The notes under the pieces were generated by a model. It saw nothing but the letters and a program-made list of their open reading frames with translations. It did not search any database and was not told the origin of the DNA. A stretch of 64,000 bases of DNA, taken from the NCBI RefSeq assembly GCF_002094305.1, contig NZ_LWTX01000006.1, positions 1 to 64,000 of the forward strand. Direction: 5' to 3'. Each line of letters begins with the position of its first letter. Position 1 is the first letter of the stretch. This DNA comes from Prescottella equi. Lineage in GTDB: Bacteria; Actinomycetota; Actinomycetes; Mycobacteriales; Mycobacteriaceae. Shown here in pieces: positions 5,667 to 40,278 of the stretch. The position numbers and the translations under genes are program-made.

Positions 5667-6680
5667 TCAGGCCAGCGCGCGCAGACGCGGCGCGAGATCC
5701 CGCTCGAACAGGTCGAGGAAGCGCTTCTGGTCGTGGCCCGGCGCGTGGAAGACCAGGTGGTTGAGGCCCGCATCGAGGTACGGCTTGATCATCTCGACGG
5801 CCTCGTCTGGATCCGACGAGACGATCCACCGCTTGGCGACCTGCTCGATCGGCAGCGCGTCGGCGGCGGCCTCCATCTCGATCGGGTCGTCGATGCTGTG
5901 CTTCTGCTCCGCGGTCAGCGACAGCGGTGCCCAGAATCGGGTGTTCTCCAGTGCCGCCGCCGGATCGGTGTCGTACGAGATCTTGATCTCGATCATCCGG
6001 TCGATGTCCGCGAAGTTGCGGGCCGCCTTCTCGGCGCCCTCCTTCACCGCAGGGATCAGCTTCTCGGTGTACAGGTCCATGCCCTTGCCGGACGTGCAGA
6101 TGAAGCCCTCGCCCGCGCGGCCCGCGTACCGCGCGACCACGGGGCCGCCGGCCGCGATGTAGACCGGAATGCCGCCCTCCGGCACGTCGTAGATCGACGC
6201 GCCCTTGGTGCTGTAGTACTCGCCCTCGAAATCGACGCGGTCGCCGGTCCACAGATCGCGCATCAGCTGCACCGACTCGCGCAGCCGTGCGAACCGCTCC
6301 TTGAACTCCGGCCACTCGCCCTTGAAACCGGTGGCGATCTCGTTGAGCGCCTCACCCGTACCCACACCGAGCATGACGCGCCCCGGGTACAGGCAGCCCA
6401 TCGTCGCGAACGCCTGCGCCACCACTGCCGGGTTGTAGCGGAACGTCGGGGTCATCACCGAGGTACCGAGCTGCAGCCGCTGGGTGCGCTCGCCGACCGC
6501 CGTCATCCACGCGATCGAGAACGGGGCATGACCACCGTTGTGCCGCCAGGGCTGGAAGTGGTCGCTGACGGTGACGCTGTCGAGGCCGTGTTCCTCGGCC
6601 ATCACGCCGAGCTCGACCAGATCGCGCGGCCCGAACTGCTCCGCGGACGCCTTCAACCCCAACTTCAATCCCTGTACCAC
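5667..6680 (-). CDS. fgd1: F420-dependent glucose-6-phosphate dehydrogenase
   Basis: Oxidises glucose 6-phosphate to 6-phosphogluconolactone while reducing coenzyme F420, the main source of F420H2 in mycobacteria and rhodococci. The 337-residue luciferase-like TIM barrel matches the mycobacterial enzyme closely: [38 protein letters not shown] with the active-site His and Trp, [35 protein letters not shown] and the [11 protein letters not shown] phosphate-binding segment. ATG at 6680. In M. tuberculosis the same gene sits beside pta and ackA; here a nitroreductase and a SUFU gene lie between. Confidence 0.95.
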
Positions 6681-6757
6681 CGGTTCTCCGATCGTCTGCC
6701 CGATTCGCTGTGGCTTCGAGTATGCCCCGCGTCACTGCCGGGGCGCAGACTCCGGTG

Positions 6758-7231
6758 TCAGTGATGCTCGACGAGATGCGGATCCGGCTTCCAGTCGTAG
6801 ACCACCGACGTCCGCAACGCGATGTCCTGCAGCGAGCGTCTCCTCCGGTCCACGGCCACCCAGAACAGCCCGAAGCCGAACAGCACGCACAGCACGGCGC
6901 GGGCCGCACACCGCGGGAAGCGGACGAGCTGTCCGTTGCGGCTGACCAGGCGCAGCCCCATGGCGACCGCCCCCACGGTGCGGCCACTGGTGGACCAGCA
7001 CACCGTGAGATACAGCACGGACAGCGCCACGAACGTGGTCGCCGACAGCAGGAACTGCGCCTGCGGGAACCGAAACTCCTGCGGTGAGAACAACAATCGC
7101 GTGAAGATCAGCCCCATGTAGATGACGCCCATCAGGAACAGCACCACCCCGATGTCGATCAGCGCGGCCAGGCCACGCGTGACGATGCCCGCCGGCCGGT
7201 GCTCCGGATCAGGGCGACGGAGTTCGGTCAT
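6758..7231 (-). CDS. RDD family membrane protein
   Basis: A 157-residue integral membrane protein with the RDD signature: an Arg followed by two Asp-containing helices (RGLAALIDIGVVLFLMGVIY, WSTSGRTVGAVAMGLRLV, and RRRRSLQDIALRTSVVYDW at the end). About three membrane helices are visible (roughly residues 22-42, 62-82 and 108-125). RDD proteins are of uncertain function; some are proposed transporters or antiporters. Its ATG overlaps the stop codon of the upstream nonapeptide-repeat gene (ATGA), so the two are translationally coupled and may work together in the membrane. Confidence 0.85.
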   Translation of the reverse strand: MTELRRPDPEHRPAGIVTRGLAALIDIGVVLFLMGVIYMGLIFTRLLFSPQEFRFPQAQFLLSATTFVALSVLYLTVCWSTSGRTVGAVAMGLRLVSRNGQLVRFPRCAARAVLCVLFGFGLFWVAVDRRRRSLQDIALRTSVVYDWKPDPHLVEHH

Positions 7232-27884: not shown

Positions 27885-28018
27885 CCGTTCGGCCAGGTCC
27901 ACCTCCCCGATCGACCAGTCCCGGTACCGCCCGCCGGTGACTAGCCTCGTAGTCGGATGCGCACGCCAGCATGGGTGTGCCCGCGCGTTCACGTCGACCG
28001 AATTGGAGTGGAGAAACC

Positions 28019-29107
28019 ATGCCGCAGCAGGTACGGGGCGTCATCGCCCGCTCGAAGGACGCCCCCGTCGAACTGGTGACCATCAACATCCCCGACCCCG
28101 GGCCGGGCGAGGCCGTCGTCGCGATCGCGGCGTGCGGCGTCTGCCACACCGACCTGACCTACCGTGACGGCGGCATCAACGACGAGTTCCCGTTCCTCCT
28201 GGGGCACGAGGCCGCGGGCATCGTCGAGGCCGTCGGTGAGGGCGTCGACACCGTCGAGGTCGGCGATTTCGTCGTCCTCAACTGGCGCGCGGTGTGCGGA
28301 AAGTGTCGCGCCTGCAAGCGTGGTCGTCCGCAGTACTGCTTCGACACCCACAACGCGAAGCAGAAAATGACGCTCGAGGACGGCACCGAACTGACCCCGG
28401 CACTGGGCATCGGCGCGTTCGCCGACAAGACCCTCGTCGCGGCCGGCCAGTGCACCAAGGTCGACCCCACCGCCGATCCGGCGGTCGTCGGACTGCTCGG
28501 CTGCGGCGTCATGGCCGGCATGGGTGCCGCGATGAACACCGGCAACGTCACCCGCGGCGACTCCGTCGCGGTCATCGGCTGCGGCGGCGTCGGTGACGCC
28601 GCCGTCATGGGCTCGCGCCTGGCCGGCGCCAACAAGATCGTCGCGATCGATCGGGACCCGAAGAAACTCGAGTGGGCCGTCGAGCTCGGCGCCACCCACA
28701 CCATCGACGCGTCGAAGGTCGACGACGTGGTCGAGGCGATCCAGGACCTCACCGACGGCTTCGGCACCGACGTCGTGATCGACGCGGTGGGCCGCCCGGA
28801 AACCTGGAAGCAGGCGTTCTACGCCCGCGACCTGGCCGGCACCGTCGTCCTCGTGGGCGTCCCCACCCCGGACATGACCCTCGAGATGCCGCTGGTCGAC
28901 TTCTTCTCGCGCGGCGGCTCGCTCAAGTCGTCGTGGTACGGCGACTGCCTGCCCGAGCGCGACTTCCCGATGCTCGTCGACCTGTACCAGCAGGGTCGGC
29001 TGCCGCTCGAGAAGTTCGTGACCGAGCGGATCAAGCTCGAGGACGTCGAGCAGGCCTTCGAGACCATGCACCGCGGCGAGGTGCTGCGCTCGGTGGTGGT
29101 CCTGTGA
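28019..29107 (+). CDS. mscR: mycothiol-dependent S-(hydroxymethyl)mycothiol (formaldehyde) dehydrogenase
   Basis: A 362-residue zinc medium-chain alcohol dehydrogenase that oxidises the formaldehyde-mycothiol adduct (and reduces S-nitrosomycothiol in mycobacteria). Catalytic zinc ligands are in [10 protein letters not shown] and FLLGHEAAG; the structural zinc Cys cluster is [15 protein letters not shown]; the NAD fold is [19 protein letters not shown] 28019 has GGAG 10-12 bases before it. It overlaps the MBL gene by GTGA, the same pair as M. tuberculosis Rv2259-Rv2260. It would deal with formaldehyde released by demethylation of amines, which fits the neighbouring amine genes, but the pair is common in actinobacteria. 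Confidence 0.93.
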
Positions 29108-29736
29108 GCGGGGTCCTCAGGGTCGACCGCGTCGTCACGGCGGGCACGTTCGAGCTCGACGGCGGCAGCTGGGACGTCGACAACAACATCTGGCTCGTCG
29201 GCGACGACGACGAGGTACTGGTGATCGACGCCGCGCACACCGCGCAGCCGATCATCGACGCCGTCGGCGGCCGCAAGGTGGTCGGCATCGTGTGCACGCA
29301 CGGGCACAACGACCACGTCACCGTCGCCCCGGAGCTGTCCAAGAAGCTCGATGCGCCGATCTACCTGAACCCGGCCGACGACGTGCTGTGGCAGATGACC
29401 CATCCGGGTGTCCGCCACCTCGCGCTCGAGGACGGTCAGCGGATCGCGGTGGCGGGCACGGATATCCAGGCCATCCACACCCCGGGCCACTCCCCCGGCT
29501 CGACGTGCCTGTACCTGCCGGAGGCGGGAGAGCTGTTCTCCGGCGACACCCTGTTCTCGGGTGGACCCGGCGCCACCGGACGCTCGTTCTCGGACTTCCC
29601 GACGATCATCGGCTCGATCCGCGACAAGCTGTTCGCACTACCCGCGGAAACCCGCGTCCACACCGGTCACGGCGACGACACCGCCCTGGGCACCGAGGCA
29701 CCGCACCTCGAGGAGTGGATCGCCCGCGGTCACTGA
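29104..29736 (+). CDS. MBL-fold hydrolase, probable S-formylmycothiol hydrolase partner
   Basis: A 210-residue metallo-beta-lactamase-fold hydrolase related to glyoxalase II. Metal motif [10 protein letters not shown], later ligands in [23 protein letters not shown] with the bridging Asp, and a last ligand in [12 protein letters not shown]. Its GTG start overlaps the stop of mscR, the conserved arrangement known in mycobacteria, which suggests it hydrolyses the formyl-mycothiol product to formate and mycothiol (inference from context). A family A palindrome 14 bases after the stop probably ends the operon. Confidence 0.88.
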
Positions 29737-29749
29737 CCGCCCCCCCGAC

Positions 29750-29800
29750 AGCTGAAGGGTCCCTTCATGCGCTCGCAGCGTATGAAGGGACCCTTCAGCT
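29750..29800. repeat. 51-bp palindrome, family A copy 2
   Basis: Same length and arm structure as the element at 16401-16451, with 19-base perfect arms (left arm AGCTGAAGGGTCCCTTCAT). Compared with copy 1, the single arm difference (G to A) is matched by a compensating change in the other arm, so pairing is preserved. It lies after the MBL gene and touches the end of the DmmA-like remnant. Confidence 0.9.
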
Positions 29801-30111
29801 TGCACGTGCGCCAGCGCTCCCGCCTCCACGGCGAACGCCTGCGCCTGCAGCACCGTCACCGCGTCCCCGACGAGGGCGAGTCGCCAGCCGACGCGGGCGG
29901 CGACGAGTTCACGCGAGAGCACCGCCTCCACACCCGCCGTCCAGCCCGGCGACATGAGTAACCAGCTGACCCTGCGCCCTGACCGCCCTGCAACCAGCGC
30001 CCGCGCCCGCGGTTCGGCGGCGCCGCGAACGACCGCAGGCCGACGTGGAACGCAGCGTTCGATCGGGGGTCCTGCAGCGGATCCGCGACCCGGTCGGGAA
30101 GTTGATCGCAT
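29801..30111 (-). pseudogene. remnant resembling dimethylamine monooxygenase subunit DmmA
   Basis: The minus-strand frame from 30111 to the palindrome edge encodes about 104 residues. The stretch VLSRELVAARVGWRLALVGD, continuing with AVTVLQAQAFAVEAGAL, matches my memory of the DmmA core (xxALxxARVGWRLxxAGPExDVLxxRxxAxxAGA). The family's C-terminal Cys-rich part is missing: similarity stops exactly at the family A palindrome. A stop codon lies directly upstream of 30111 and there is no good ribosome site. The family call rests on memory and needs a search. With no other Dmm subunit present it would be non-functional. The remaining 200 bases up to glnT hold the promoter region described separately. 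Confidence 0.45.
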
Positions 30112-30256
30112 CTCCGACGATTACACGAGCACTTGAACCTTGTGACCGAATCCTCCTCGTGCCCAGCAATTCCCAGGACGTTCGCGAGCGGACTCACCCC
30201 GCCGGAAGGCGTCACCACATTCTCACCCGCCCGTAACGCATCCGTCACGGACGCTA

Positions 30257-30295
30257 TGTTTCATGACATGCAACAGTGATTCACTCAATGAAACA
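30257..30295. promoter_or_regulatory. operator-like element before glnT, shared with the 39 kb promoter
   Basis: TGTTTCATGACATGCAACA at 30257-30275 is followed by ATGAAACA at 30288-30295, which is the exact reverse complement of the first eight bases. The same 19-mer with two changes, and a matching half-site at the same 31-base offset, lies at 39018-39056 before the FAD oxidoreductase. The element ends 24 bases before the glnT start. A common regulator is likely, possibly the XRE-cupin protein at 35048. Confidence 0.7.
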
Positions 30296-30319
30296 CAGTC
30301 GGACCACCGAGGAGTTCAC

Positions 30320-31684
30320 ATGGCGCTCGACCCCGCAGATCTGACCGTGATGTGCCTACCCGAGGCCGGCGCGCCGGATCGCCCGGATCTCGCGACCCTC
30401 GCCCGGACCACCGACACCCGTTTCGTCCTGGCGGTGTTCACCAACCTGGCCGGCAAGCCGTGCGCCAAGCTGGTGCCCGTCGAGGCGGTGGAGGAACTGC
30501 AGGAGGACGGCGTCGGCTTCGCCGGCTACGCCGCCGGAGCGATGGGTCAGGTGCCCGCGGATCCCGATCTCGTCGCCGTCCCCGACGCCGCGTCGTTCAC
30601 CCCGATCCCGTTCGTGCGCCCCGGCCTCGCGCTGGTGCACTGCGACCCGCACGTGCAGGGCGAGCCGTGGCCCTTCGCCCCGCGCGTGATCCTGAAGAAG
30701 GTGCTGGGACAGGCCGGCGACCTCGGCCTCGAGGTCAACGTCGGCACCGAGATCGAGTACTTCCTCGTCGACCGCGACGGGGACGGTGGTTTGCGCACCG
30801 CCGATGCCCTCGACACCTCCCGGCGCCCCTGCTACGACGCTCGCGACGTCACCCGCATGTACGAGCACCTCACCGCGATCTCGGCCGCGATGAACCAGTT
30901 GGGTTGGGGCAACTACGCCAACGACCACGAGGACGGCAACGGTCAGTTCGAGCAGAACTTCCAGTACGCCGACGCCCTCACCACCGCCGACCGCGTCGTC
31001 ACGTTGCGCTATCTCATCTCCGTACTCGCCGAACAGCGCGGTATGACGGCGACGTTCATGCCCAAGCCCTTCGCCGACCGGACCGGCAGCGGCATGCACA
31101 TGCACCTGTCGCTGTGGCGAGACGGCGCACCGGTCTTCCCCGACCACACGGACCCGCGCGGACTGGGTCTCTCGCCCACCGCTTACGCGTTCATCGGCGG
31201 CATCCTCGAGCATGCCGGCGGATTGCAGGGTGTGCTCGCCCCGACGGTCAACTCCTACAAACGAACCGGGGCCACCTCGACGAGCAGCGGTGCGACGTGG
31301 TCGCCGCGAAGGCCGACGTACGGCGGCAACGACCGCACCCACTACCTGCGGGTGCCGGACGCCAGCCGCGTCGAGTTGCGCGGCGGCGACGGTTCCGCCA
31401 ACCCGTATCTCGCGTCGGCGGTGACCGTCGCGGCCGGGCTGGACGGCATCCGCCGCGGCACCGACCCCGGCGAACCCGGCGGTGGCATCTGCCCCGACGA
31501 CCTGCCGATGACCCTGCTGCACGCGATGGATGCGCTCGGGAAGGACGCCGTGGTCACCGGCGCCCTCGACGCCGCGGGTCCCGGCGTGGCCGACTACTTC
31601 ACCGCCCTCAAGCGGGACGAGTTCTTCGAATGGCACAGCACGGTCACACCGTGGGAGGTCGACAGCTACCTCACCGCATTCTGA
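30320..31684 (+). CDS. glnT: glutamine synthetase-like ligase (GlnT / gamma-glutamylmethylamide synthetase type)
   Basis: A 454-residue glutamine-synthetase-fold enzyme that joins glutamate with ammonia or an amine using ATP. The beta-grasp start is VLAVFTNLAGKPCAKLVP. Metal and substrate motifs are NVGTEIEYFLVDRDG, EDGNGQFEQNFQY, FMPKPFADRTGSGMHMHLSLW and the ATP/phosphate segment NSYKRTG with RVELRGGDGSANPY. It is of the short type that lacks the class I adenylylation Tyr region. ATG 30320 has GAGGAG just before it. Followed by glxB-glxC-glxD, it matches the glnT-glxBCD and gmaS-mgsABC arrangements, where the product is gamma-glutamylmethylamide. Which amine it uses here is not shown by sequence. 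Confidence 0.85.
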   Translation: MALDPADLTVMCLPEAGAPDRPDLATLARTTDTRFVLAVFTNLAGKPCAKLVPVEAVEELQEDGVGFAGYAAGAMGQVPADPDLVAVPDAASFTPIPFVRPGLALVHCDPHVQGEPWPFAPRVILKKVLGQAGDLGLEVNVGTEIEYFLVDRDGDGGLRTADALDTSRRPCYDARDVTRMYEHLTAISAAMNQLGWGNYANDHEDGNGQFEQNFQYADALTTADRVVTLRYLISVLAEQRGMTATFMPKPFADRTGSGMHMHLSLWRDGAPVFPDHTDPRGLGLSPTAYAFIGGILEHAGGLQGVLAPTVNSYKRTGATSTSSGATWSPRRPTYGGNDRTHYLRVPDASRVELRGGDGSANPYLASAVTVAAGLDGIRRGTDPGEPGGGICPDDLPMTLLHAMDALGKDAVVTGALDAAGPGVADYFTALKRDEFFEWHSTVTPWEVDSYLTAF

Positions 31685-31713
31685 CCGCCACCGCGAACAA
31701 AGGGAGACAACAC

Positions 31714-32610
31714 ATGTGCGGAATCGTCGGGCTTCATCTCCGGGAGCCCTCACTGTATCCGCGGCTCGGTGAACTACTCACCGGGATGCTCGGCCAGATG
31801 GTCGACCGCGGACCGGACTCTGCGGGGATGGCCATCTACGGCGACCCGGTCTGGTCACCGGCCGGGCACGCGACGGTGTCGCTGCTCGGCGCCGACGCCA
31901 CCGCGCAGTCGTTGGCCGCCGCAGTCGGGAGCACACTGGGCGTCGTCGTCACCGGCGTCGACATCGGCCCGAACACGTTGCTGCACGCACCTGTTCCGGC
32001 GTCGGCGCTCGCCGACGCCGCACTCGGCGAAGCGCCCGGTGCGATCCTCATCGGATTCGGCGACGACGTCACGGTACTCAAGGGCATGGGCGACCCGGTG
32101 GACCTCGCACACCGATTCGGGCTGCCCGCCGCGTCGGGCCGGCAGGGCGTCGCGCACACGCGCATGGCCACCGAATCCGCCGTCACCGCAGCGGGTTCGC
32201 ATCCGTTCGCCGTCGGACCGGACCAGTGTCTGGTGCACAACGGATCGTTCTCGAATCACCTGAGCGTCAAACGTGAACTCGAGGCCGAGGGCGTCGCGTT
32301 CGACAGTGAGAACGACACCGAGGTGGGCGCACGCTTCGTCGCGAAGCAGCTCGCGGAGGGTGTCGACCTGGAGAAGGCCCTGCGTCTGCTCGGCGAGCGG
32401 TTCGACGGCTTCTACACGCTGCTCGTGTCCACGCGGGACTCGTTCGCGGTGGTGCGCGACCCCATCGCGTGCAAGCCCGCGATCATCGCCGAGCACACCG
32501 GCTACGTCGCGATGGCGTCCGAGTACCGCGCGCTGGCCGGCCTGCCCGGCATCGAGAGCGCCCGCATCTTCGAACCCGAACCGGAAGAGGTTTACGTATG
32601 GCACCGCTGA
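31714..32610 (+). CDS. glxB: class II glutamine amidotransferase (GlxB / N-methylglutamate synthase subunit A type)
   Basis: A 298-residue Ntn-type amidotransferase domain, equal to the N-terminal part of glutamate synthase as a separate protein. The nucleophile is Cys2 in MCGIVGLHL; other signatures are MVDRGPDSAGMA, VAHTRMATES and LVHNGSFSN. In GlxB/MgsA it frees ammonia or methylamine from the glutamyl amide for transfer to 2-oxoglutarate. The start is fixed by the Cys2 requirement, with AGGGAG at 31700. It overlaps glxC by 13 bases. Confidence 0.88.
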   Translation: MCGIVGLHLREPSLYPRLGELLTGMLGQMVDRGPDSAGMAIYGDPVWSPAGHATVSLLGADATAQSLAAAVGSTLGVVVTGVDIGPNTLLHAPVPASALADAALGEAPGAILIGFGDDVTVLKGMGDPVDLAHRFGLPAASGRQGVAHTRMATESAVTAAGSHPFAVGPDQCLVHNGSFSNHLSVKRELEAEGVAFDSENDTEVGARFVAKQLAEGVDLEKALRLLGERFDGFYTLLVSTRDSFAVVRDPIACKPAIIAEHTGYVAMASEYRALAGLPGIESARIFEPEPEEVYVWHR

Positions 32611-33296
32611 CCGCCACCCCGACCACCACGTACGACGTCTCCGACGTCGGGACCCGCGGGCTCAACGCCGCACTGCAGTCCACCGCGGCGCCGGCAACGG
32701 TGACGGTGGTGGAACCGGCCGGTGCGCATGCCCTCGCGTGCGGCCTGGACGCCCCGATCGACGTACGCATCGACGGGCACGTCGGCTACTACGCGGCCGG
32801 CATGAACCAGCGTGCGACCGTGACGATCGACGGCAATGCCGGTGTCGGCGTGGCCGAGAACATGATGTCGGGCACCGTCCGCGTCACCGGCGACGCATCG
32901 CAGTCGGCGGGCGCGACCGCGCACGGCGGCCTGCTCGTGATCGAGGGCAATGCCGCAGCGCGCTGCGGCATCTCGATGAAGGGCGTCGACATCGTCGTCG
33001 GCGGCAGCATCGGCCACATGAGCGCGTTCATGGGCCAGGCCGGACGGCTCGTCGTGCTCGGCGACGCCGGTGAGGCGCTGGGTGATTCGCTGTACGAGAC
33101 CCGTATCTACGTGCGCGGAACCGTTGCCTCCCTCGGGGCCGACTGCATCGTGAAGGAGATGCGCGACGAACACCGGGCCGAACTTCGGGAACTGCTCGAC
33201 GCCGCGGGTTTCGACGCCGACCCCACCGAGTTCACCCGTTACGGCTCGGCCCGCAGGCTCTACAACTTCCACGTCGACAACACCTCGTCCTACTGA
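32598..33296 (+). CDS. glxC: GXGXG-domain protein (GlxC / N-methylglutamate synthase subunit B type)
   Basis: A 232-residue beta-helix protein equivalent to the C-terminal GXGXG domain of glutamate synthase. The repeat pattern is visible in HVGYYAAGMNQRATVTIDGN, AGVGVAENMMSGTVRVTGD and GISMKGVDIVVGGSIGHMSA. This domain has a structural and channelling role between the amidotransferase and FMN parts. Start ATG 32598 lies inside the end of glxB, so translation is coupled. The C terminus (YGSARRLYNFHVDN) resembles other GlxC proteins. Confidence 0.88.
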   Translation: MAPLTATPTTTYDVSDVGTRGLNAALQSTAAPATVTVVEPAGAHALACGLDAPIDVRIDGHVGYYAAGMNQRATVTIDGNAGVGVAENMMSGTVRVTGDASQSAGATAHGGLLVIEGNAAARCGISMKGVDIVVGGSIGHMSAFMGQAGRLVVLGDAGEALGDSLYETRIYVRGTVASLGADCIVKEMRDEHRAELRELLDAAGFDADPTEFTRYGSARRLYNFHVDNTSSY

Positions 33297-33320
33297 CGCG
33301 CGCCATTTCCAGGAGGCCCC

Positions 33321-34646
33321 ATGACCACGCACACCCCCGGGCTGCGCGAATCCGCGACGTTCGACCGCGACGTCATCCACGAGATCCAGCGCGCCGCCGA
33401 GACCGGCATCTACGACATCCGAGGATGGGGCGCCAAACGAAAGCTCCCACACTTCGACGACCTGTTGTTCCTGGGCGCATCGATGTCCCGCTACCCACTC
33501 GAGGGTTATCGCGAGCGTTGTGACACCGACGTCGTGCTCGGTGACCGCCACGCGAAGTACCCACTGCACCTCGATATTCCGATCACCATCGCGGGCATGA
33601 GCTTCGGCGCGCTGTCCGGTCGGGCGAAGGAGGCCCTGGGCCGCGGCGCGAGCGAGGTGGGCACCTCCACCACGACCGGGGACGGCGGCATGACGACCGA
33701 GGAGCGCGGGCAGTCCAAGCACCTCGTCTACCAGTATCTGCCGTCGCGGTACGGCATGAACCCCGACGACCTGCGCAAGGCCGATGCGATCGAGATCGTG
33801 CTGGGCCAGGGCGCCAAGCCCGGCGGTGGCGGAATGCTGCTGGGCCAGAAGATCACCGACCGTGTCGCCGGGATGCGCACGTTGCCCGTGGGCGTCGACC
33901 AGCGCAGCGCGTGCCGACACCCGGACTGGACCGGCCCGGACGACCTCGCCATCAAGATCATCGAACTGCGGGAGATCACCGGGTGGGAGAAGCCGATCTA
34001 CGTGAAGGTGGGCGCCACCCGCACGTACTACGACGTCAAGCTCGCCGTGAAGGCCGGAGCCGACGTGATCGTCGTCGACGGCATGCAGGGAGGCACCGCC
34101 GCGACGCAGGACGTGTTCATCGAGCACGTGGGCATCCCCACGCTCGCCGCGATCCCGCAGGCCGCGCAGGCGCTGCAGGAGTTGGGTGTGCACCGGACAC
34201 CGGGCGGGGTGCAACTCGTCGTGTCGGGCGGCATCCGCTCGGGCGCCGACGTCGCGAAGGCCATGGCTCTGGGCGCGGATGCCGTCGCGATCGGCACCGC
34301 AGCGCTGATCGCGTTGGGCGACAACCATCCCCGCTTCCAGCAGCAGTACGAGGCGCTCGGCTCGGCGGCCGGCTTCTACGACGATTTCCAGGCCGGACTC
34401 GACCCCGCAGGCATCACGACACAGGATCCGGAACTGCAGAAGAACCTCGACCCGGTCGACGGCGGACGCCGCCTCGCGAACTACCTGCGCGTGCTGACGA
34501 TGGAGGCACAGACCCTCGCCCGCGCGTGCGGCAAGTCCCACCTGCGCAACCTCGAACCACAGGACCTCGTCGCACTCACCGTCGAGGCGTCGGCGATGGC
34601 GCAGGTGCCGCTCGCGGGCACGAACTGGATTCCCGGCCGAATCTGA
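33321..34646 (+). CDS. glxD: FMN-binding glutamate synthase-like protein (GlxD / N-methylglutamate synthase subunit C type)
   Basis: A 441-residue TIM-barrel flavoprotein equal to the central synthase domain of GltB. Flavin and substrate features are ITIAGMSFGALSGRAKEALG, STTTGDGGMTTEERG, VKVGATRTYYDVKLAVKAGA, DVIVVDGMQGGTAATQ and VSGGIRSGADVAKAMALGA. The CxxCxxxxCP cluster motif of classical GltB is not present; instead the sequence reads DPAGITTQDPEL, so no 3Fe-4S cluster is expected. Strong AGGAGG 7 bases before ATG 33321. With GlxB and GlxC it should make glutamate or N-methylglutamate from a glutamyl amide and 2-oxoglutarate/glutamate. Confidence 0.88.
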   Translation: MTTHTPGLRESATFDRDVIHEIQRAAETGIYDIRGWGAKRKLPHFDDLLFLGASMSRYPLEGYRERCDTDVVLGDRHAKYPLHLDIPITIAGMSFGALSGRAKEALGRGASEVGTSTTTGDGGMTTEERGQSKHLVYQYLPSRYGMNPDDLRKADAIEIVLGQGAKPGGGGMLLGQKITDRVAGMRTLPVGVDQRSACRHPDWTGPDDLAIKIIELREITGWEKPIYVKVGATRTYYDVKLAVKAGADVIVVDGMQGGTAATQDVFIEHVGIPTLAAIPQAAQALQELGVHRTPGGVQLVVSGGIRSGADVAKAMALGADAVAIGTAALIALGDNHPRFQQQYEALGSAAGFYDDFQAGLDPAGITTQDPELQKNLDPVDGGRRLANYLRVLTMEAQTLARACGKSHLRNLEPQDLVALTVEASAMAQVPLAGTNWIPGRI

Positions 34647-34661
34647 TGCGGGACAGGGCGA

Positions 34662-34691
34662 GGCCGGGCCCCGCGTCGCGGGGACCCGGCC
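34662..34691. terminator. hairpin terminator after glxD
   Basis: Arms GGCCGGGcCCCGCG and CGCGGGGaCCCGGCC with one bulge and a very small loop, 15 bases after the glxD stop and followed by TTCGTACCC. It likely ends the glnT-glxBCD transcript and may also serve the convergent 34-codon gene. Confidence 0.7.
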
Positions 34692-34709
34692 TTCGTACCC
34701 GGCGGCCGG

Positions 34710-34814
34710 TCAGGCCTGCGGGTCCGTGGGCGGGGTCTGCCCCTCACCCGACGATCCGAGGAACGCCAGCAGCTTGTTGATGATGCCGAGGAAGCCATCG
34801 AGTTCGGCCGACAT
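34710..34814 (-). CDS. 34-residue small protein, not in conventional ORF length range
   Basis: ATG 34814 is preceded by GGAG with a 6-base spacer in a well-formed ribosome site (TTGGAGAAAAC). The product has an amphipathic N-terminal part (MSAELDGFLGIINKLLAFLG) and a hydrophilic Pro-rich tail (SSGEGQTPPTDPQA). It lies in the 401-base gap between glxD and the XRE-cupin gene, convergent with glxD. The amphipathic start could bind membrane or another protein. The call depends on ribosome site and codon use only; no family is known to me. Confidence 0.6.
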   Translation of the reverse strand: MSAELDGFLGIINKLLAFLGSSGEGQTPPTDPQA

Positions 34815-35047
34815 GTTTTCTCCAATCTGTGTGGTGTTCAATGCATGTACCCCACGAAGGGGCACATCGATCTTGTACCCGGAGGCGGTGAAGATCTAAA
34901 CCCCCCATCTCCACAAAAACTTTCGTGTTCCACGCAGGCCCAGGTGAGAGCGATGCCGAAGCCCGAGCGGCGGCCGGGGACACGCCCGGGAGCCCCCACC
35001 CTCCGGGTCGGGTCCACTGCCAGTGGACCGAACGCTACTGTGAGGCA

Positions 35048-35695
35048 ATGAGCCCGTCCAAGCGCCCCGTCCACCACGACACCGCGCAACGCGAAGTGCC
35101 CGCCGACACCCCCACCGGCGTCGACCTCGAGCGCGTCATCGCGACCCAGGTCCGCAAACTCCGCCTGGCGAGCGGACTCTCGGTGGGCGACATGGCCGCG
35201 AAGGTCGGCATCTCCAAGGCGATGCTGTCCAAGATCGAGAACGCGCAGACGTCGTGCAGCCTGTCCACCCTCGCGCGCCTCGCTGCCGGCCTCGACGTGC
35301 CGGTGACGTCACTGTTCCGCGGTGCCGATTCCACGCGCGACGCCGTGTTCGTCGAGGCCGGCAGCGGCGCGGTGATCGTCGGACGCGGCACCCGCGTCGG
35401 CCACCACTACGAGCTGCTCGGCGCGCTGCGGGGACAGCACAAGCGGCTCGAACCGGTGCTCGTCACCCTCACCGACGCGAGTGAGGTGTTCCCGCTCTTC
35501 CAGCATCCGGGCACCGAGCTGATCTACATGCTCGAGGGCGAGATGGTCTACGGCCACGGCGAGAGCGAGTACCGACTGAAGCCCGGAGACTCGCTGCTTC
35601 TCGACGGTGAGGGCCTGCACGGGCCCAACGATCTGGTGCAGTTGCCGATCCGCTTCCTTGCGGTGACCGCCTATCCGGACAACCATCAGGAGTGA
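35048..35695 (+). CDS. XRE-family regulator with C-terminal cupin domain
   Basis: A 215-residue repressor-type protein. A Cro/CI helix-turn-helix covers about residues 28-85 (QVRKLRLASGLSVGDMAAKV, GISKAMLSKIENAQTSCSLS). A cupin ligand domain covers about 130-208 (PLFQHPGTELIYMLEGEM, YRLKPGDSLLLDGEGLHGP). Regulators of this design often control amine, polyamine or amino-acid use and sense the substrate in the cupin. Placed in the middle of the amine genes, it is the best local candidate for binding the shared element at 30257 and 39018. ATG 35048; a weak GTGAGGCA precedes it. Confidence 0.85.
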   Translation: MSPSKRPVHHDTAQREVPADTPTGVDLERVIATQVRKLRLASGLSVGDMAAKVGISKAMLSKIENAQTSCSLSTLARLAAGLDVPVTSLFRGADSTRDAVFVEAGSGAVIVGRGTRVGHHYELLGALRGQHKRLEPVLVTLTDASEVFPLFQHPGTELIYMLEGEMVYGHGESEYRLKPGDSLLLDGEGLHGPNDLVQLPIRFLAVTAYPDNHQE

Positions 35696-35754
35696 GGGGT
35701 TGCCTCCGGATCCACGGACGCAACCCGAACTTTCATTTGAGTTGAAATTTCATA

Positions 35755-35773
35755 GAAGGTAAGCCTATGCTCA
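35755..35773. promoter_or_regulatory. iron-box-like site before the siderophore-binding gene
   Basis: GAAGGTAAGCCTATGCTCA matches 13 of 19 positions of the DtxR/IdeR box as I know it (TTAGGTTAGCCTAACCTAA), including a full AGCCTA core. It lies 34 bases before the lipoprotein start, in an AT-rich stretch (TTTCATTTGAGTTGAAATTT). Confidence 0.5.
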
Positions 35774-35806
35774 CCGCGCATCGTCGCCGTGTGGAAAGGC
35801 CCCTCC

Positions 35807-36838
35807 ATGAGATCTGCTCGATCACGAACCGCTCGCCGGTCCGTCCTGCTGTCCGGCCTGGTAGCCGCGGCTCTCGTCGTCGCCGGCTGCGGTTCGAGCG
35901 AACCCTCCACGGAGTCCGCCGACAGCGACTTCGAAACCGTGACGATCGAGCACGCCCTCGGCACGGCCGTCATCACCGCCGAACCCGAACGCATCGTCAC
36001 GCTGGGCCAGGGCTCCGCGGAGACCGCGATCGCCCTCGGCACCGTGCCGGTGGGCATCGAGGCCTACGAATGGGGCAGCGACGAGACCGGATACCTGCCG
36101 TGGATCCACGACGCGATCACCGACCGAGGCGCGCAATTGCCCGTGCAGTTCACCGGCGGCAGCGAGATCGACATCGAGGCCGTCGCAAAGCTCGACCCGG
36201 ACCTCATCCTGGCACCGTGGTCGGGTGTCACCCAGCAGCAGTACGACGCCCTGAGTGCCCTGGCCCCCACCGTCGCGTACGCCGAGAAGGCGTGGACGAC
36301 CACATGGGAGGACCAGATCAGGGTGATCGGGAAGGCGATGGGCAAGGCCCCCGAGGCCGATCAGGAGATCGCGAAGATCAAGGCGCAGTTCGCCGATGCC
36401 ACGGCGGCACACCCCGAGTACGCGGACGTGTCGTTCTCGTTCGTCTACAACACCGGCCCCGGCACACTGGGCGTGTTCTTCCCGGACGAGCAGCGCGTAG
36501 CGATGGTGCGCGGCCTCGGATTGCAGGTCGACCCGATCGTGAACACCCTGCACGAGACCGAGGGCACCGACTCCGCGCTGATCGGTCTGGAGAACGCGCA
36601 CCTGCTGAAGGACTCCGACCTGCTGTTCACGTTCTACTCCGACGACGCGAACCGCGCGGAGATCGAGGCTCAGCCCGTCTACCGTCAGATTCCCGCAATC
36701 GCACGCGGCTCGGTGGTGGCGCCCGAGGATCAGTCGTTCGTCACCGGGTCCTCGATGATCAATCCGCTGACCGTGCCGTGGTCGCTCGAGCGCTACGTCC
36801 CGATGATCGACGAGGCTGTCGCCCAGCTCGGCAACTGA
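35807..36838 (+). CDS. iron-siderophore ABC transporter substrate-binding lipoprotein
   Basis: A 343-residue FecB/FhuD-type periplasmic-binding-fold protein. The lipobox is VVAGCGSS after a Tat/Sec-like start (SARSRTARRSVLLSGL), so it is anchored by a lipid on the outer face of the membrane. The fold keeps ERIVTLGQGSAETAIALG, a long central helix (IRVIGKAMGKAPEADQEIAKI), and a C-terminal lobe. GGAAAGG precedes ATG 35807. No permease or ATPase gene follows; it stands alone, so the rest of the transporter is elsewhere. An iron box upstream suggests iron control. Converges with the GbsR gene directly at the stop. Confidence 0.88.
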   Translation: MRSARSRTARRSVLLSGLVAAALVVAGCGSSEPSTESADSDFETVTIEHALGTAVITAEPERIVTLGQGSAETAIALGTVPVGIEAYEWGSDETGYLPWIHDAITDRGAQLPVQFTGGSEIDIEAVAKLDPDLILAPWSGVTQQQYDALSALAPTVAYAEKAWTTTWEDQIRVIGKAMGKAPEADQEIAKIKAQFADATAAHPEYADVSFSFVYNTGPGTLGVFFPDEQRVAMVRGLGLQVDPIVNTLHETEGTDSALIGLENAHLLKDSDLLFTFYSDDANRAEIEAQPVYRQIPAIARGSVVAPEDQSFVTGSSMINPLTVPWSLERYVPMIDEAVAQLGN

Positions 36839-37381
36839 TCACTCGTCGTCTCCGCCGGATGCTCCGCCGGCGCGCGCCTGCCCGTCGCGTTCGGCCTTGA
36901 AGCGGTTCCACTCGCTGCGGAGCATCCGGTTGTCGATGATCCAGCCCATGTAGTCGCGCATGTTCAGCACCCGCTCGTACGCGGGCCCGTCGGGATCGGT
37001 GTGCGCGAGCGCCTCGGCCGCCAGCCGCCGCTGATTCTCCAGATACGCGTGCTCGTTCTCGAGAAAGCCACCCCACACATCCGAATCCATTGCGTAGTAG
37101 TGGGTTCGGTCGCGTGGTTTCCGGACCAGCTTGACGAATCCGCGGTCGATCAACCGGCGCACGTACGTCGACACCGAACCGCGGCTCGCACCCAGTTCGG
37201 TGGCCAGTTCCTCGGCCGTCACGCCGGGAGTGTCGTCGATGAGCAGGTACCCGGCGATCCGTCCCTCGATGCGCGAAGCGCCCGCCGACTGCCAGTAGTC
37301 GGCGAACCGCTCGACGAACCAGCGCGAGAAGTCCGCACCGGTCGCGGGGCCGCCGCCGTCGGTGTTCGTGCGCTCGCTCAT
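36839..37381 (-). CDS. GbsR/MarR-type transcriptional regulator
   Basis: A 180-residue winged-helix protein. The DNA-binding part is about residues 38-85 (EGRIAGYLLIDDTPGVTAEE, ELATELGASRGSVSTYVRRL, GFVKLVRKPRDRTHYYAMD), followed by a long helical dimerisation part (ENEHAYLENQRRLAAEALAH). GbsR-type proteins control compatible-solute, drug or envelope genes. Its stop abuts the siderophore protein gene; on the other side 136 bases separate it from amt. No target operator was recognised. Confidence 0.82.
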   Translation of the reverse strand: MSERTNTDGGGPATGADFSRWFVERFADYWQSAGASRIEGRIAGYLLIDDTPGVTAEELATELGASRGSVSTYVRRLIDRGFVKLVRKPRDRTHYYAMDSDVWGGFLENEHAYLENQRRLAAEALAHTDPDGPAYERVLNMRDYMGWIIDNRMLRSEWNRFKAERDGQARAGGASGGDDE

Positions 37382-37517
37382 GTACCGCCTCGAAATCCCG
37401 TCTCCCGAAACTCTTGCCGACGAACATTATGCCGACGGCAGAGCGGGCGACGCGACACGGCGACGCGGCCGCAGCCCGTCGGATGACGAACAGCGGCCGC
37501 GTGGACCGTTCGAGAAT

Positions 37518-38882
37518 CTACGTGCGCTGCTCGGTGGTCGCGACGCGCGTCGCGAGCGCCTCGGCGGCGTCCGCGACGGCAACCGGATCCACCGGCCCCG
37601 AACCTGTCACCGTGACGGCCATCGTCTCGGTCACGTACGCGGTCTCGCCGTGCTCGGTGACGTCGAGACCCTCGTGCTCGTCCTCCGGGCGTACCCGCAG
37701 ACCGATGGTGACCTGGATTGCCTTCGCGATGAGCCAGGTGACCGTGAACGAGTAGGCCAGCACCACGACGACCGCGAGCGCCTGCTTGCCCAGCAGCCCC
37801 AGGCCGCCGCCGTAGAACAGACCCGCGACACCGTTGGGGGCGTCCTCCGTCGCGAGCAGGCCGATCAGCAGCGTGCCCAGGATGCCGCCGACCAGGTGGA
37901 TGCCGACTACGTCCAGGGCGTCGTCGTAGCCGAGACGGAACTTGAGCGACACCGCGAAGCAGCACAGCGCACCCGCGGCGGCGCCGATGACGAGCGCACC
38001 GATCGGCGACACCGCACCACACGCCGGCGTGATCGCGACCAACGCGGCGATGAGTCCGGACGCCGCGCCGAGCGAGGTCGGGCGTCCCTCCCGCACTCGC
38101 TCCACCAGCAGCCACCCGCAGATGCCGGCGCACGCAGCGGCCACGGTGTTGAGCACGACGACGGACGCGGCATTGTCGGCGGCGAGCGCGGAGCCGCCGT
38201 TGAAGCCGAACCAGCCGAACAGCAGGATGCCCGCACCCAGCAGCGTCAGAGGAAGGTTGTGCGGCCGAGGCATGTTCGGGAACGCGTGCCGCTTGCCGAG
38301 CACCAGGACCATCGCCAACGCGGCGATACCGGCGTTGATGTGGACGGCGGTGCCGCCCGCGAAGTCGATGGCTCCCAACTTGTTCGCGATCCAGCCGCCG
38401 ACCACGCTGCCGTCGTCGGAGTCGAACGCGAACACCCAGTGGGCCACGGGGAAGTACACGAGCGTGACCCACAGGCCGGCGAAGAGCATCCACGCCCCGA
38501 ACTTGATGCGGTCGGCCAGCGCACCCGAGATGAGCGCGACCGTGATGGCCGCGAACAACATCTGGAATCCCGCCACCAGCGCCGGCGGCAGGCCGGGCTC
38601 CGCGGACGGCTCGAGCAGTTGCCCGAGTCCGACGAACTCGAGCGGGTCGCCGAGAATACCCAAGCCGCCCAACGAGTTACCGAGAACCGTCGAGTAGCCG
38701 AACAGCACCCACAGCACACCGACGACGGCGAACGATCCGAACGTCATCATCATCATGTTGAGGGAGTTGCGGATGCTGACCATGCCGCCGTAGAACAGCG
38801 CGAGACCCGGGATCATCAACGCCACGAACGTGAATGCCGCCAATAACCATGCGGTGTCGGCGGCCGCGAGAGCCTGTTCCAT
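37518..38882 (-). CDS. amt: ammonium/methylammonium transporter
   Basis: A 454-residue Amt/MEP/Rh channel with 11 membrane helices. The twin pore histidines are visible in VTLVYFPVAHWVFAFD and DVVGIHLVGGILG; the Phe gate region lies in DTAWLLAAFTFVALMIPGLA. The C-terminal cytoplasmic tail is acidic (DEHEGLDVTEHGE). AAGGTGGG precedes ATG 38882. No glnK or glnD gene follows, unlike typical nitrogen operons, so this is a stand-alone transporter tied to the amine region. It is divergent from the FAD oxidoreductase and shares its promoter region with the 39018 element. Such channels also carry methylammonium. Confidence 0.95.
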   Translation of the reverse strand: MEQALAAADTAWLLAAFTFVALMIPGLALFYGGMVSIRNSLNMMMMTFGSFAVVGVLWVLFGYSTVLGNSLGGLGILGDPLEFVGLGQLLEPSAEPGLPPALVAGFQMLFAAITVALISGALADRIKFGAWMLFAGLWVTLVYFPVAHWVFAFDSDDGSVVGGWIANKLGAIDFAGGTAVHINAGIAALAMVLVLGKRHAFPNMPRPHNLPLTLLGAGILLFGWFGFNGGSALAADNAASVVVLNTVAAACAGICGWLLVERVREGRPTSLGAASGLIAALVAITPACGAVSPIGALVIGAAAGALCCFAVSLKFRLGYDDALDVVGIHLVGGILGTLLIGLLATEDAPNGVAGLFYGGGLGLLGKQALAVVVVLAYSFTVTWLIAKAIQVTIGLRVRPEDEHEGLDVTEHGETAYVTETMAVTVTGSGPVDPVAVADAAEALATRVATTEQRT

Positions 38883-39017
38883 ATCTGCCCACCTTGCGTC
38901 GGCCCGTCTTACACGGGGAATCGAGGTCACCCGAGAGTGAACGGCGGCTGTAAGGCCTGCAAGTAGCTGCGGTGAACAGTGCGTAACGGGGTCCGCACAG
39001 GATCTGCGGGTTGCCAT

Positions 39018-39056
39018 TGTTTCATTTCATGCAACACTGTCTCTCATCAAGAAACC
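39018..39056. promoter_or_regulatory. operator-like element before the FAD oxidoreductase, twin of 30257
   Basis: TGTTTCATTTCATGCAACA at 39018-39036 differs from the glnT element at two positions only. At the same offset (+31) lies AAGAAACC, matching six of eight bases of the glnT half-site. The element lies between the divergent amt and FAD oxidoreductase genes and could regulate both. Confidence 0.7.
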
Positions 39057-39075
39057 CTGCGACTGGAGGTCTGAG

Positions 39076-40278
39076 ATGACAGAAAAGGCGACGGAGCGCG
39101 CACGGATCGTGATCGTCGGAGGCGGGCTCGAGGGCCTGGCCATCGCGTGGCAACTCGCCGACCGCGGCGAGACCGACGTGCTCGTCCTCGAGCGGGACAC
39201 CCTGTGCGGGGGCATGACGGGCAAGTCCAGCGGAATCGTGCGCTGCCACTACGGCGTTCCGTCGTTGGCCGCGATGGCGTGGTACGGCGTCGAGGTGTTC
39301 GGCCGGGCCGACGAGATCTTCGGCACCGACATCGGATTCCGACAGACCGGATACGTCGTCGGCGTGGGTGAGAACAACGTCGAACCCCTGCGCGCCAACA
39401 TCGAGATGCACCGCACGCTCGGCGTTCCCGTCGACCTGGTCGACGCCGACGCGGTCCGCGCGCTGTGGCCCGGAATCCACCTCGACGACTTCGCGGGCTT
39501 CGCCTACGAGCCGCTCGGCGGTCACGGCGACGCCTACATGACCGGTATGGCGTACGGTGCCCGGGCCCGCGCACTCGGCGTACGGATTCGTCAGTCCACC
39601 AACGTTGTTCGCCTGATCTCCGACGACTTCGGAGCCGTCCGCGGCGTCCTGTGCGCCGACGGAACCGAGATTCTGTGCGATACCGTCGTACTCGCGACCG
39701 GGGTGTGGAGTCCTGCCCTCGCCGCAACCGCGGGCGTCCACCTGCCCATCCGGGCCCAGCGCGAGCAACTGGTGCTGGTGGATCAGGGTGCGCCCACCCC
39801 CGACGTCCCGACATTCTCGGATCTGGTGAACTTGCAGTACATTCGACGCGAACCCAACGGTCACCTACTGGTCGGCAACAGCGATCACTCGAATCCCGAG
39901 ATCGCCGATCCGGACGCCTATCCCAACCGCGCTACCGAGGACTTCGTCGAGACCGCGATCGGCAGACTCGACCGCATCCTGCCCGACATGCCGGATCCGC
40001 GACTCGCGTCGTCGTACGCGGGCTGTTACGACATCACTCCCGACTACAACCCGATCATCGGGCCCTCGCCCGCCGCGGGCCTGTTCCTGGCCGTCGGCTT
40101 CAGCGGCCACGGCTTCAAGATCTCGCCGGCCGTGGGGCGTCTGGCGGCCGATCTACTGCTCGACGGGATCAGCAGCGACCCCGCCGTCGACGGGAACGAC
40201 TTCCGCTACAGCCGCTTCGACGAGGGCAAACCACTCGCGAGCCTGCACCCGTACGCCGGGGCCGGCGAGATGCGCTGA
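39076..40278 (+). CDS. FAD-dependent amine oxidoreductase (sarcosine oxidase beta / DAO family)
   Basis: A 400-residue flavoenzyme of the DAO superfamily. The FAD fold is IVIVGGGLEGLAIAWQLADR; a catalytic-face segment GGMTGKSSGIVRCHYGVPSL follows, with Cys and His near where related enzymes attach the flavin; the C-terminal DYNPIIGPSPAAGLFLAVGF and SGHGFKISPAVGRLAADLL are typical of sarcosine/N-methylglutamate oxidases. GGAGG precedes ATG 39076. It has the length of heterotetrameric SoxB/MgdA subunits, but no alpha, gamma or delta partner is adjacent, so it may act alone. Its promoter shares a 19-bp element with glnT-glxBCD, which suggests it oxidises a methylated amino acid in the same pathway (inference). 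Confidence 0.85.
   Translation: MTEKATERARIVIVGGGLEGLAIAWQLADRGETDVLVLERDTLCGGMTGKSSGIVRCHYGVPSLAAMAWYGVEVFGRADEIFGTDIGFRQTGYVVGVGENNVEPLRANIEMHRTLGVPVDLVDADAVRALWPGIHLDDFAGFAYEPLGGHGDAYMTGMAYGARARALGVRIRQSTNVVRLISDDFGAVRGVLCADGTEILCDTVVLATGVWSPALAATAGVHLPIRAQREQLVLVDQGAPTPDVPTFSDLVNLQYIRREPNGHLLVGNSDHSNPEIADPDAYPNRATEDFVETAIGRLDRILPDMPDPRLASSYAGCYDITPDYNPIIGPSPAAGLFLAVGFSGHGFKISPAVGRLAADLLLDGISSDPAVDGNDFRYSRFDEGKPLASLHPYAGAGEMR

Follow-up and report, generated by a model that had tools for sequence, protein, structure and literature searches.

Gene clusters described in several bacteria bear on a region of the Prescottella equi genome that combines a glutamine-synthetase-like ligase, a three-subunit synthase, and a single-subunit flavoenzyme; the region lies in the window, by which we mean the whole 64-kb stretch of DNA analyzed (the first 64 kb of its contig, in a 5.2-Mb genome of 36 contigs). 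In SAR11, glxBCD have been assigned by homology to N-methylglutamate synthase and soxBDAG to its dehydrogenase (PMC3160333, available portion). As reference clusters for the N-methylglutamate (NMG) pathway we used those of Rhizobium johnstonii pRL11, Methylobacterium sp. DM1, and Aminobacter niigataensis, picked by gene content. The R. johnstonii block is annotated with sarcosine oxidase gamma, alpha, delta, and beta subunits, GlxA, a helix-turn-helix regulator, an amidotransferase, a GXGXG protein, and a flavin mononucleotide (FMN) glutamate synthase, and further with glnT, purU, an aminomethyltransferase, DmmA, a reductase, and a DUF3445 protein; we read it as a putative MgdABCD-MgsABC-GmaS-PurU-Dmm array.

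Among actinobacteria, msmeg_6259-6263 of Mycobacterium smegmatis are amt1-glnT-glxBCD by annotation and GlnR-responsive, and the oxidoreductase gene msmeg_6264 rises alongside them (PMC4222082 and PMC4617892, in the parts available). By its position, msmeg_6264 is probably the counterpart of the DAO-family flavoenzyme gene discussed below. For Mycobacterium sp. 141 and 155, which have gma-mgsABC, the accessible text of PMC5023230 proposes methylamine oxidation via NMG and gives the dehydrogenase step to a distant mgdA-D. Our search of the open-licence PMC literature found no report of a single-subunit NMG dehydrogenase, which is not proof of absence.

We propose, with a probability of roughly 0.7, that the Prescottella region serves methylamine nitrogen assimilation via NMG, using a one-subunit, folate-independent demethylase that would feed mycothiol-dependent formaldehyde oxidation. 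By homology, an Amt channel would admit methylammonium, a GmaS-type ligase would join methylamine to the gamma-carboxylate of glutamate in an ATP-driven reaction, and GlxB-GlxC-GlxD (MgsABC) would convert the resulting gamma-glutamylmethylamide to NMG. The flavoenzyme encoded at 39076-40278 would then stand in for MgdABCD and oxidize NMG to glutamate and free formaldehyde, which MscR, and probably a neighboring hydrolase of the metallo-beta-lactamase (MBL) fold too, would take to formate through mycothiol. An XRE-cupin regulator probably governs both transcription units through a shared candidate operator. The first-pass annotation, made from the DNA letters, had already suggested for actinobacteria a compact route for methylated amines in which a single-subunit oxidase takes the place of MgdABCD, and that suggestion gains support here from the ligase residue signature, the match of glxB-glxC-glxD to MgsABC, the linkage of flavoenzyme and ligase, the failure to find SoxD, and the dimethylamine monooxygenase (dmm) neighbors in relatives.

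The gene order is mscR, MBL hydrolase, dmm remnant, ligase, glxB, glxC, glxD, XRE-cupin, FecB-type gene, GbsR-type gene (minus strand), Amt (minus strand), and DAO-family gene, and every gene that the first-pass annotation had named was found at or near its coordinates, including the mycothiol-dependent formaldehyde dehydrogenase adjoining the region and the siderophore protein and GbsR gene said to interrupt it. The closest named relatives are Prescottella; the ligase is 93% identical to its P. defluvii ortholog, and the main DNA blocks are collinear with P. defluvii at 88-89% identity. Co-occurrence was counted in 151 genomes drawn evenly across the family, and gene neighborhoods were compared in 80 named loci, the best 80 of at least 133 relatives, which are not evenly drawn. 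Gene calls in the relatives' DNA relied on a GC-position score, with some genes missed or overextended; because these calls are unreliable, locus and genome counts were taken from tblastn or hidden Markov model searches.

Ligase and synthase

The ligase gene (30320-31684, plus strand; glnT in relatives' records) matches TIGR03105, a model named for type III glutamate--ammonia ligase, at 600 bits, above the cut-off of 469.6. In the PDB its product comes closest to Rhodovulum GmaS (RhGmaS; 7cql, E 4e-116), followed by a glutamate-methylamine ligase (9qur, E 1e-97), with chains of ammonia-using glutamine synthetase (GS) trailing at 3e-56 and weaker. According to the available text of the GmaS structure paper (PMC7948447), Ala48 and Trp300 replace GS Asp50 and the flap Glu, and the methylamine pocket of RhGmaS consists of Tyr147, Gln175, Asp177, Glu179, Glu186, Asn188, and Lys30'. 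We defined a signature of 10 positions from Ala48, Trp300, these seven pocket residues, and the catalytic Arg312. It reads K A Y Q D E E N W R in RhGmaS and in all nine of the non-actinobacterial plasmid-record ligases aligned (Rhizobium, Methylobacterium, Aminobacter, Thioclava, Acidithiobacillus, Aquabacterium, Cupriavidus, Acinetobacter, and Leptolyngbya), and K A Y A D E E N W R in the window ligase, nine of 10 as in RhGmaS. The Asp50 and flap Glu expected of an ammonia GS are thus Ala and Trp in the window ligase. Besides it the genome has four further GS-type matches, and at the same two positions its own paralogs show Asp and Glu (L003 and L004), Asp and Trp (L005), or Thr and Trp (L002). 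The window ligase therefore looks like a GmaS-type enzyme and not like an ammonia glutamine synthetase, as far as its residues can tell.

A phylogeny, which the first-pass annotation had put forward as a check that could have grouped the ligase firmly with ammonia-only enzymes, placed it instead with the type III/GmaS ligases and apart from the genome's own GlnA-type paralogs: those from actinobacteria fall into a single clade among the type III enzymes, separate from L003, L004, and L005 (93/93). As a side observation, a ligase paralog of about 40% identity (L167 8111-9472), which has an Amt gene of its own and a TetR-like gene as neighbors, shows K T Y S D E E D W R as its signature and is possibly another gamma-glutamyl-amine ligase.

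The three genes downstream of the ligase, all on the plus strand, encode a class II amidotransferase subunit with N-terminal MCGI (glxB, 31714-32610), a GXGXG subunit (glxC, 32598-33296), and an FMN glutamate-synthase-like subunit (glxD, 33321-34646). They match the R. johnstonii and Methylobacterium DM1 MgsA, MgsB, and MgsC subunits in that order, at 47-49%, 63-67%, and 76-81% identity, respectively. The XRE-cupin gene that follows (35045-35695, plus strand; PF01381 and PF07883) is 48-49% identical to the XRE regulator that accompanies the mgs genes in Rhizobium and Aminobacter, and has a match in 68 of the 80 named loci. Beyond the actinobacteria, an Aquabacterium plasmid cluster (L160 307-9279) has glnT-glxBCD beside a single flavin adenine dinucleotide (FAD) oxidoreductase, 32% identical to the window flavoenzyme, together with HutD and the N-formylglutamate deformylase HutG.

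A single-subunit flavoenzyme linked to the ligase

The flavoenzyme gene (39076-40278, plus strand; PF01266) lies 4.4 kb downstream of glxD, beside the Amt gene. Taking as close DAO a best match of at least 54% identity, which leaves out two genomes (G023 and G054) with only a distant match of 31%, we found the ligase in 36 of the 151 family genomes, a close DAO in 38, and both in 35; a close DAO is thus present in 35 of 36 ligase-positive genomes versus three of the 115 others (Fisher p = 1e-29). These counts include partial matches in G102 (DAO) and G027 (ligase), and score as ligase-negative a genome (G049) whose cluster is cut by a contig end. The two genes lie on one contig within 17 kb of each other in 33 of the 35 genomes, and are split over draft contigs in the other two. 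Because DAO and ligase co-occur across the family in this way, we assign the FAD enzyme to the system.

The 36th ligase-positive genome (G042) has, adjoining glxD, a single-subunit DAO of a second type that resembles monomeric sarcosine oxidase (MSOX). Among the 80 named loci, type 1 (that of the window) is found in 56 and type 2 in 15, never both, and nine have neither in the flank, five of them with short or cut flanks (L068, L099, L100, L113, and L121). Position varies: the DAO gene follows glxD ahead of the XRE gene in most Mycolicibacterium and Gordonia loci; Nocardia, R. opacus, and a small number of other loci have it ahead of the ligase.

In a tree of DAO-family proteins, type 1 groups with MgdA/SoxB and the beta subunit of L-proline dehydrogenase PDH1, and type 2 with the sole MSOX row, with long-branch flags on the pair of type 2 and the sarcosine oxidase row, on MgdA with PDH1-beta, and on L144_t2. 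The type-2 placement is separately backed by NCBIfam matches and by a PDB search in which sarcosine oxidases came first. At the position of window Gly316, Gly is found in all 21 type-1 and all five MgdA/SoxB rows, and Cys in all 16 type-2 rows (a count that excludes the second DAO of L144 and in which two rows are the same Antrihabitans protein); we take this Cys to be the covalent-flavin Cys of sarcosine oxidase. The window enzyme, without a Cys at the flavin position and outside the MSOX group, accordingly does not look like a monomeric sarcosine oxidase. Its Arg56 is shared by 21 of 21 type-1, 15 of 16 type-2 (one gap), and five of five MgdA/SoxB rows, and its Lys348 by all of them, with Met at position 348 in PDH1-beta; these residues presumably correspond to the MSOX carboxylate ligands Arg52 and Lys348. 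An AlphaFold2 model built with 40 sequences (mean pLDDT 92.6, the model's per-residue confidence score) has its best fold match in L-proline dehydrogenase beta (1y56_B, TM-scores 0.85/0.91), followed by SoxB (1vrq_B). The window enzyme thus looks like a catalytic beta subunit that would work without partner subunits.

The partners of the classical enzyme were looked for at several scales. SoxD, the delta marker of the heterotetramer, was not found in this genome, in a genome-wide search made with the SoxD model only; 14 of the 151 family genomes have it, and among the 36 ligase-positive genomes it is present in five and was not found in 31. Within the window there is no match to MgdB, MgdC, MgdD, or PurU at E 1e-6, and none of the 80 named loci has an MgdB match or a strong MgdC match nearby, while one has a purU match. 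The GmaS-type ligase and MgsABC of the classical NMG pathway have counterparts here and its MgdABCD was not found in these searches, and because MgdABCD is a defining feature we treat the window cluster as a variant and not as a plain member of that pathway. We set aside an MgdABCD encoded elsewhere in the genome on the SoxD search, and a copper amine oxidase on a search that likewise gave no match here and matched in one control genome.

Dimethylamine genes, formaldehyde, and a shared candidate operator

In P. defluvii and in G039, a genome of the same genus, the space between the MBL/mscR genes and the ligase holds genes for a eutQ-like cupin, for DmmA, for a ferredoxin reductase that carries a DmmA-like domain, and for a heme-dependent oxidative N-demethylase (HODM), families that were named on representative proteins; a similar block is partly seen in G009. 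HODM genes occur in 28 of the 151 family genomes, 26 of 36 ligase-positive ones versus two of the 115 others (p = 7e-19), and lie within 15 kb of the ligase in 22 of those 26; among the 80 named loci, 19 have dimethylamine monooxygenase genes in their flanks. The window itself has lost 2.1 kb of the block. What is left (29807-30112, minus strand) is a decayed dmmA of 71 residues, 83% identical to the P. defluvii DmmA of L065 (E 4e-32), and a weaker C-terminal piece of the eutQ-like cupin gene (E 8e-7), so that the window has only a remnant of the intact set of HODM, reductase, and DmmA. A PF11927 search of the genome gave no match, and on that result a dmm copy elsewhere in the genome was set aside. 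In P. agglutinans the block is absent and no remnant was found. In several Gordonia loci (L113, L115, L138, and others, ∼2-8 kb), demethylase and reductase genes form two pairs upstream of Amt, which may serve two different methylated amines.

Near the edge of the dmm deletion, a 47-bp repeat (29752-29798) has the form of a hairpin whose 17-base arms are exact; it is one of three copies in the genome (the others are at C18:8398-8444 and C18:23711-23757) and may be a terminator or a repetitive extragenic palindromic (REP)-like element. On the other side of it stand the S-(hydroxymethyl)mycothiol dehydrogenase gene of mscR/fadH type (28016-29107, plus strand; TIGR03451 at 690.5 bits, cut-off 512.9) and the MBL-fold hydrolase gene (29095-29736, plus strand; PF00753), which overlaps mscR here and in L173. 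The mscR gene adjoins the cluster in Prescottella and directly follows the type-2 DAO gene in two Streptomyces, a placement that fits formaldehyde as product.

The Amt gene (37518-38882, minus strand; TIGR00836 at 445 bits) has an uncertain chosen start in a frame open to 39017; its product matches PDB 2b2f at E 8e-92, and Amt is in the flanks of 48 of the 80 named loci. Between the XRE-cupin and Amt genes lie those for a FecB-type siderophore-binding protein (35789-36838, plus strand; PF01497) and a MarR/GbsR-type regulator (36839-37381, minus strand; PF12802), whose role in the pathway is doubtful. This stretch (35789-37381) is missing from P. defluvii L065. The pair also occurs, at a different position, within the cluster of another genus (G049; L171 14840-16450), and may be more than an accidental interruption.

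A candidate operator is shared by the ligase and FAD/Amt promoters. The motif GTTTCAT-NN-CATGCAACA, with at most two mismatches, has two places in the 5.2-Mb genome, at 30258 upstream of the ligase and at 39019 between Amt and the FAD enzyme; a third match is the first site on the opposite strand, and the control pattern read backwards gave one match. Both sites lie within a 37-bp module ending in GAAAC (30258-30294 and 39019-39055, both plus strand), which is present in the other Prescottella loci examined, with a weak ligase-site motif (three mismatches) in P. agglutinans. Outside the Nocardiaceae the motif is weak: with at most four mismatches, matches stand upstream of the ligase in 22 of 80 loci, of DAO in 14 of 56, of Amt in nine of 47, and of XRE in four of 68, as compared to seven of 79 for the control gene glxB and 26 of 800 random stretches. 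The XRE-cupin is a possible reader of this shared candidate operator. Inspection of both promoters by eye showed no convincing GlnR box, an Rfam search of the window gave no match, and a promoter and terminator scan of the window yielded nothing above shuffled sequence.

Alternative readings and relation to described systems

Several observations count against methylamine assimilation through a single-subunit NMG demethylase. The pocket residue Gln175 is Ala in the window ligase, in Streptomyces NBC_01320, and in all 77 aligned actinobacterial ligases (of 80 loci), and amine preference may therefore differ. In the ligase tree, the 96/96 join of actinobacterial ligases with the group of RhGmaS and the rhizobial and Methylobacterium enzymes was flagged as a possible long-branch effect, and a tree without three long own paralogs (L002, L004, and L005) gave an open three-way fork; because the RhGmaS join was lost on this rebuild, the case for the ligase rests on the residue signature and not on branching. 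Four loci with full flanks show no DAO (L069, L115, L116, and L138), and mscR is nearby in only three of the 80 named loci. A close relative of the flavoenzyme (65% identical) stands in G056 beside M20 and HutD genes, without a ligase match at E 1e-100, and the genome's own second DAO (54% identical; L166 7092-8261, minus strand) overlaps an M20 gene of allantoate-amidohydrolase type (5791-7095, minus strand); these two arrangements suggest that the DAO family has other uses. The genome also carries a divergent tryptophan tryptophylquinone (TTQ) amine dehydrogenase cluster (L179; C3:197500-215000) with MauA-, MauD-, and MauE-like proteins, an amicyanin-like protein, a multicopper oxidase, and an amino-acid-type permease, in which MauA and MauD are under their equivalog cut-offs. 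In the available part of PMC4222082, M. smegmatis is reported to grow when its only source of nitrogen is ethanolamine but not when it is 10 mM methylamine, and GlnR binding upstream of msmeg_6258 was not detected. Separately, an M20 gene lies near the cluster in 18 of the 80 named loci.

Some of these points would be accommodated if the carrier chemistry were the same and the substrate a primary amine larger than methylamine (ethylamine or ethanolamine, for example) that is glutamylated, moved to the alpha position, and oxidized by DAO to glutamate and the matching aldehyde. The change from Gln175 to Ala may enlarge the pocket, RhGmaS accepts ethylamine with a Km of 58 uM (PMC7948447, available text), and the growth of M. 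smegmatis on ethanolamine is GlnR-dependent (PMC4222082, likewise). We nevertheless consider a larger amine unlikely: dimethylamine monooxygenase-type genes, would-be producers of methylamine, flank 19 of the 80 loci, and formaldehyde is suggested by the mscR gene that adjoins the cluster in some lineages. The Amt protein, too, is an ammonium-channel homolog, and Amt channels also take methylammonium.

The flavoenzyme could instead oxidize sarcosine or another N-methyl amino acid and leave NMG to another enzyme. This would agree with the homologs that sit with M20 genes in G056 and at the second DAO locus, and the NCBIfam soxB match of the window DAO is well under its cut-off (129 versus 529 bits) and thus gives no substrate assignment. 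Yet one of the two DAO types lies near the ligase in 71 of the 80 loci, where MgdB or a strong MgdC match is found in none, and the delta marker of MgdABCD was not found in the genome, so that we think such a division of labor improbable. That the ligase and glxBCD form a nitrogen-starvation pair for ammonia, akin to GS and glutamate synthase (GOGAT), with DAO as a separate sarcosine or amino-acid oxidase, is very unlikely and was set aside on the ligase residues: the nitrogen and GlnR responsiveness of the M. smegmatis genes, amt1 among them (PMC4222082 and PMC4617892, as available), and the NCBIfam name of the ligase, type III glutamate--ammonia ligase, speak for it, but the ammonium Asp and flap Glu are replaced by Ala and Trp, the genome has its four other GS-type matches, and both DAO co-occurrence and dmm neighbors would be left unexplained.

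Methylamine assimilation via NMG would, if correct, mean that one small flavoenzyme suffices for the dehydrogenase step, as compared to a four-subunit complex, and that two subfamilies share this use. It would give a testable identity to a widespread actinobacterial block filed as glutamine synthetase and glutamate synthase, to which M. smegmatis contributes its GlnR-responsive amt1-glnT genes, and it bears on methylated-amine nitrogen use by actinobacteria, on the use of gmaS as a biomarker, and on how enzymes can demethylate N-methyl amino acids. A broader idea, which we offer tentatively and would sooner bet against, is that actinobacteria built a folate-free pathway at least twice, with a SoxB/PDH1-beta-like or an MSOX-like flavoenzyme in the same slot, and that with the Gln175-to-Ala ligase it may be a general glutamate-carrier route in which several small primary amines yield their nitrogen and the aldehyde is set free, not a one-carbon route for methylamine only.

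As compared to the proteobacterial NMG pathway (gmaS, mgsABC, and mgdABCD), the Prescottella cluster shares a homologous ligase, synthase, and XRE regulator, with dmm-type genes alongside in relatives; it differs in having a one-subunit DAO for MgdABCD, and Amt and a mycothiol-dependent formaldehyde dehydrogenase with no purU match in the window. Heterotetrameric sarcosine oxidase beta and PDH1 beta, which work in multi-subunit complexes, are the fold and tree neighbors of the window DAO, whereas searches gave no delta gene in this genome and, within the window, no match to Mgd alpha, gamma, or delta. Monomeric sarcosine oxidase and N-methyltryptophan oxidase share the single-subunit DAO fold, and the type-2 enzyme of Streptomyces comes closest to them, while the window DAO falls outside their group, with Gly for the type-2 Cys. 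Mycobacterium sp. 141 and 155 have the same actinobacterial gma-mgsABC block, but there the dehydrogenase step was assigned to mgdA-D. Finally, msmeg_6259-6264 of M. smegmatis have the gene order of most Mycolicibacterium loci, in genes that were published, in the available text of PMC4222082 and PMC4617892, as nitrogen-starvation genes.

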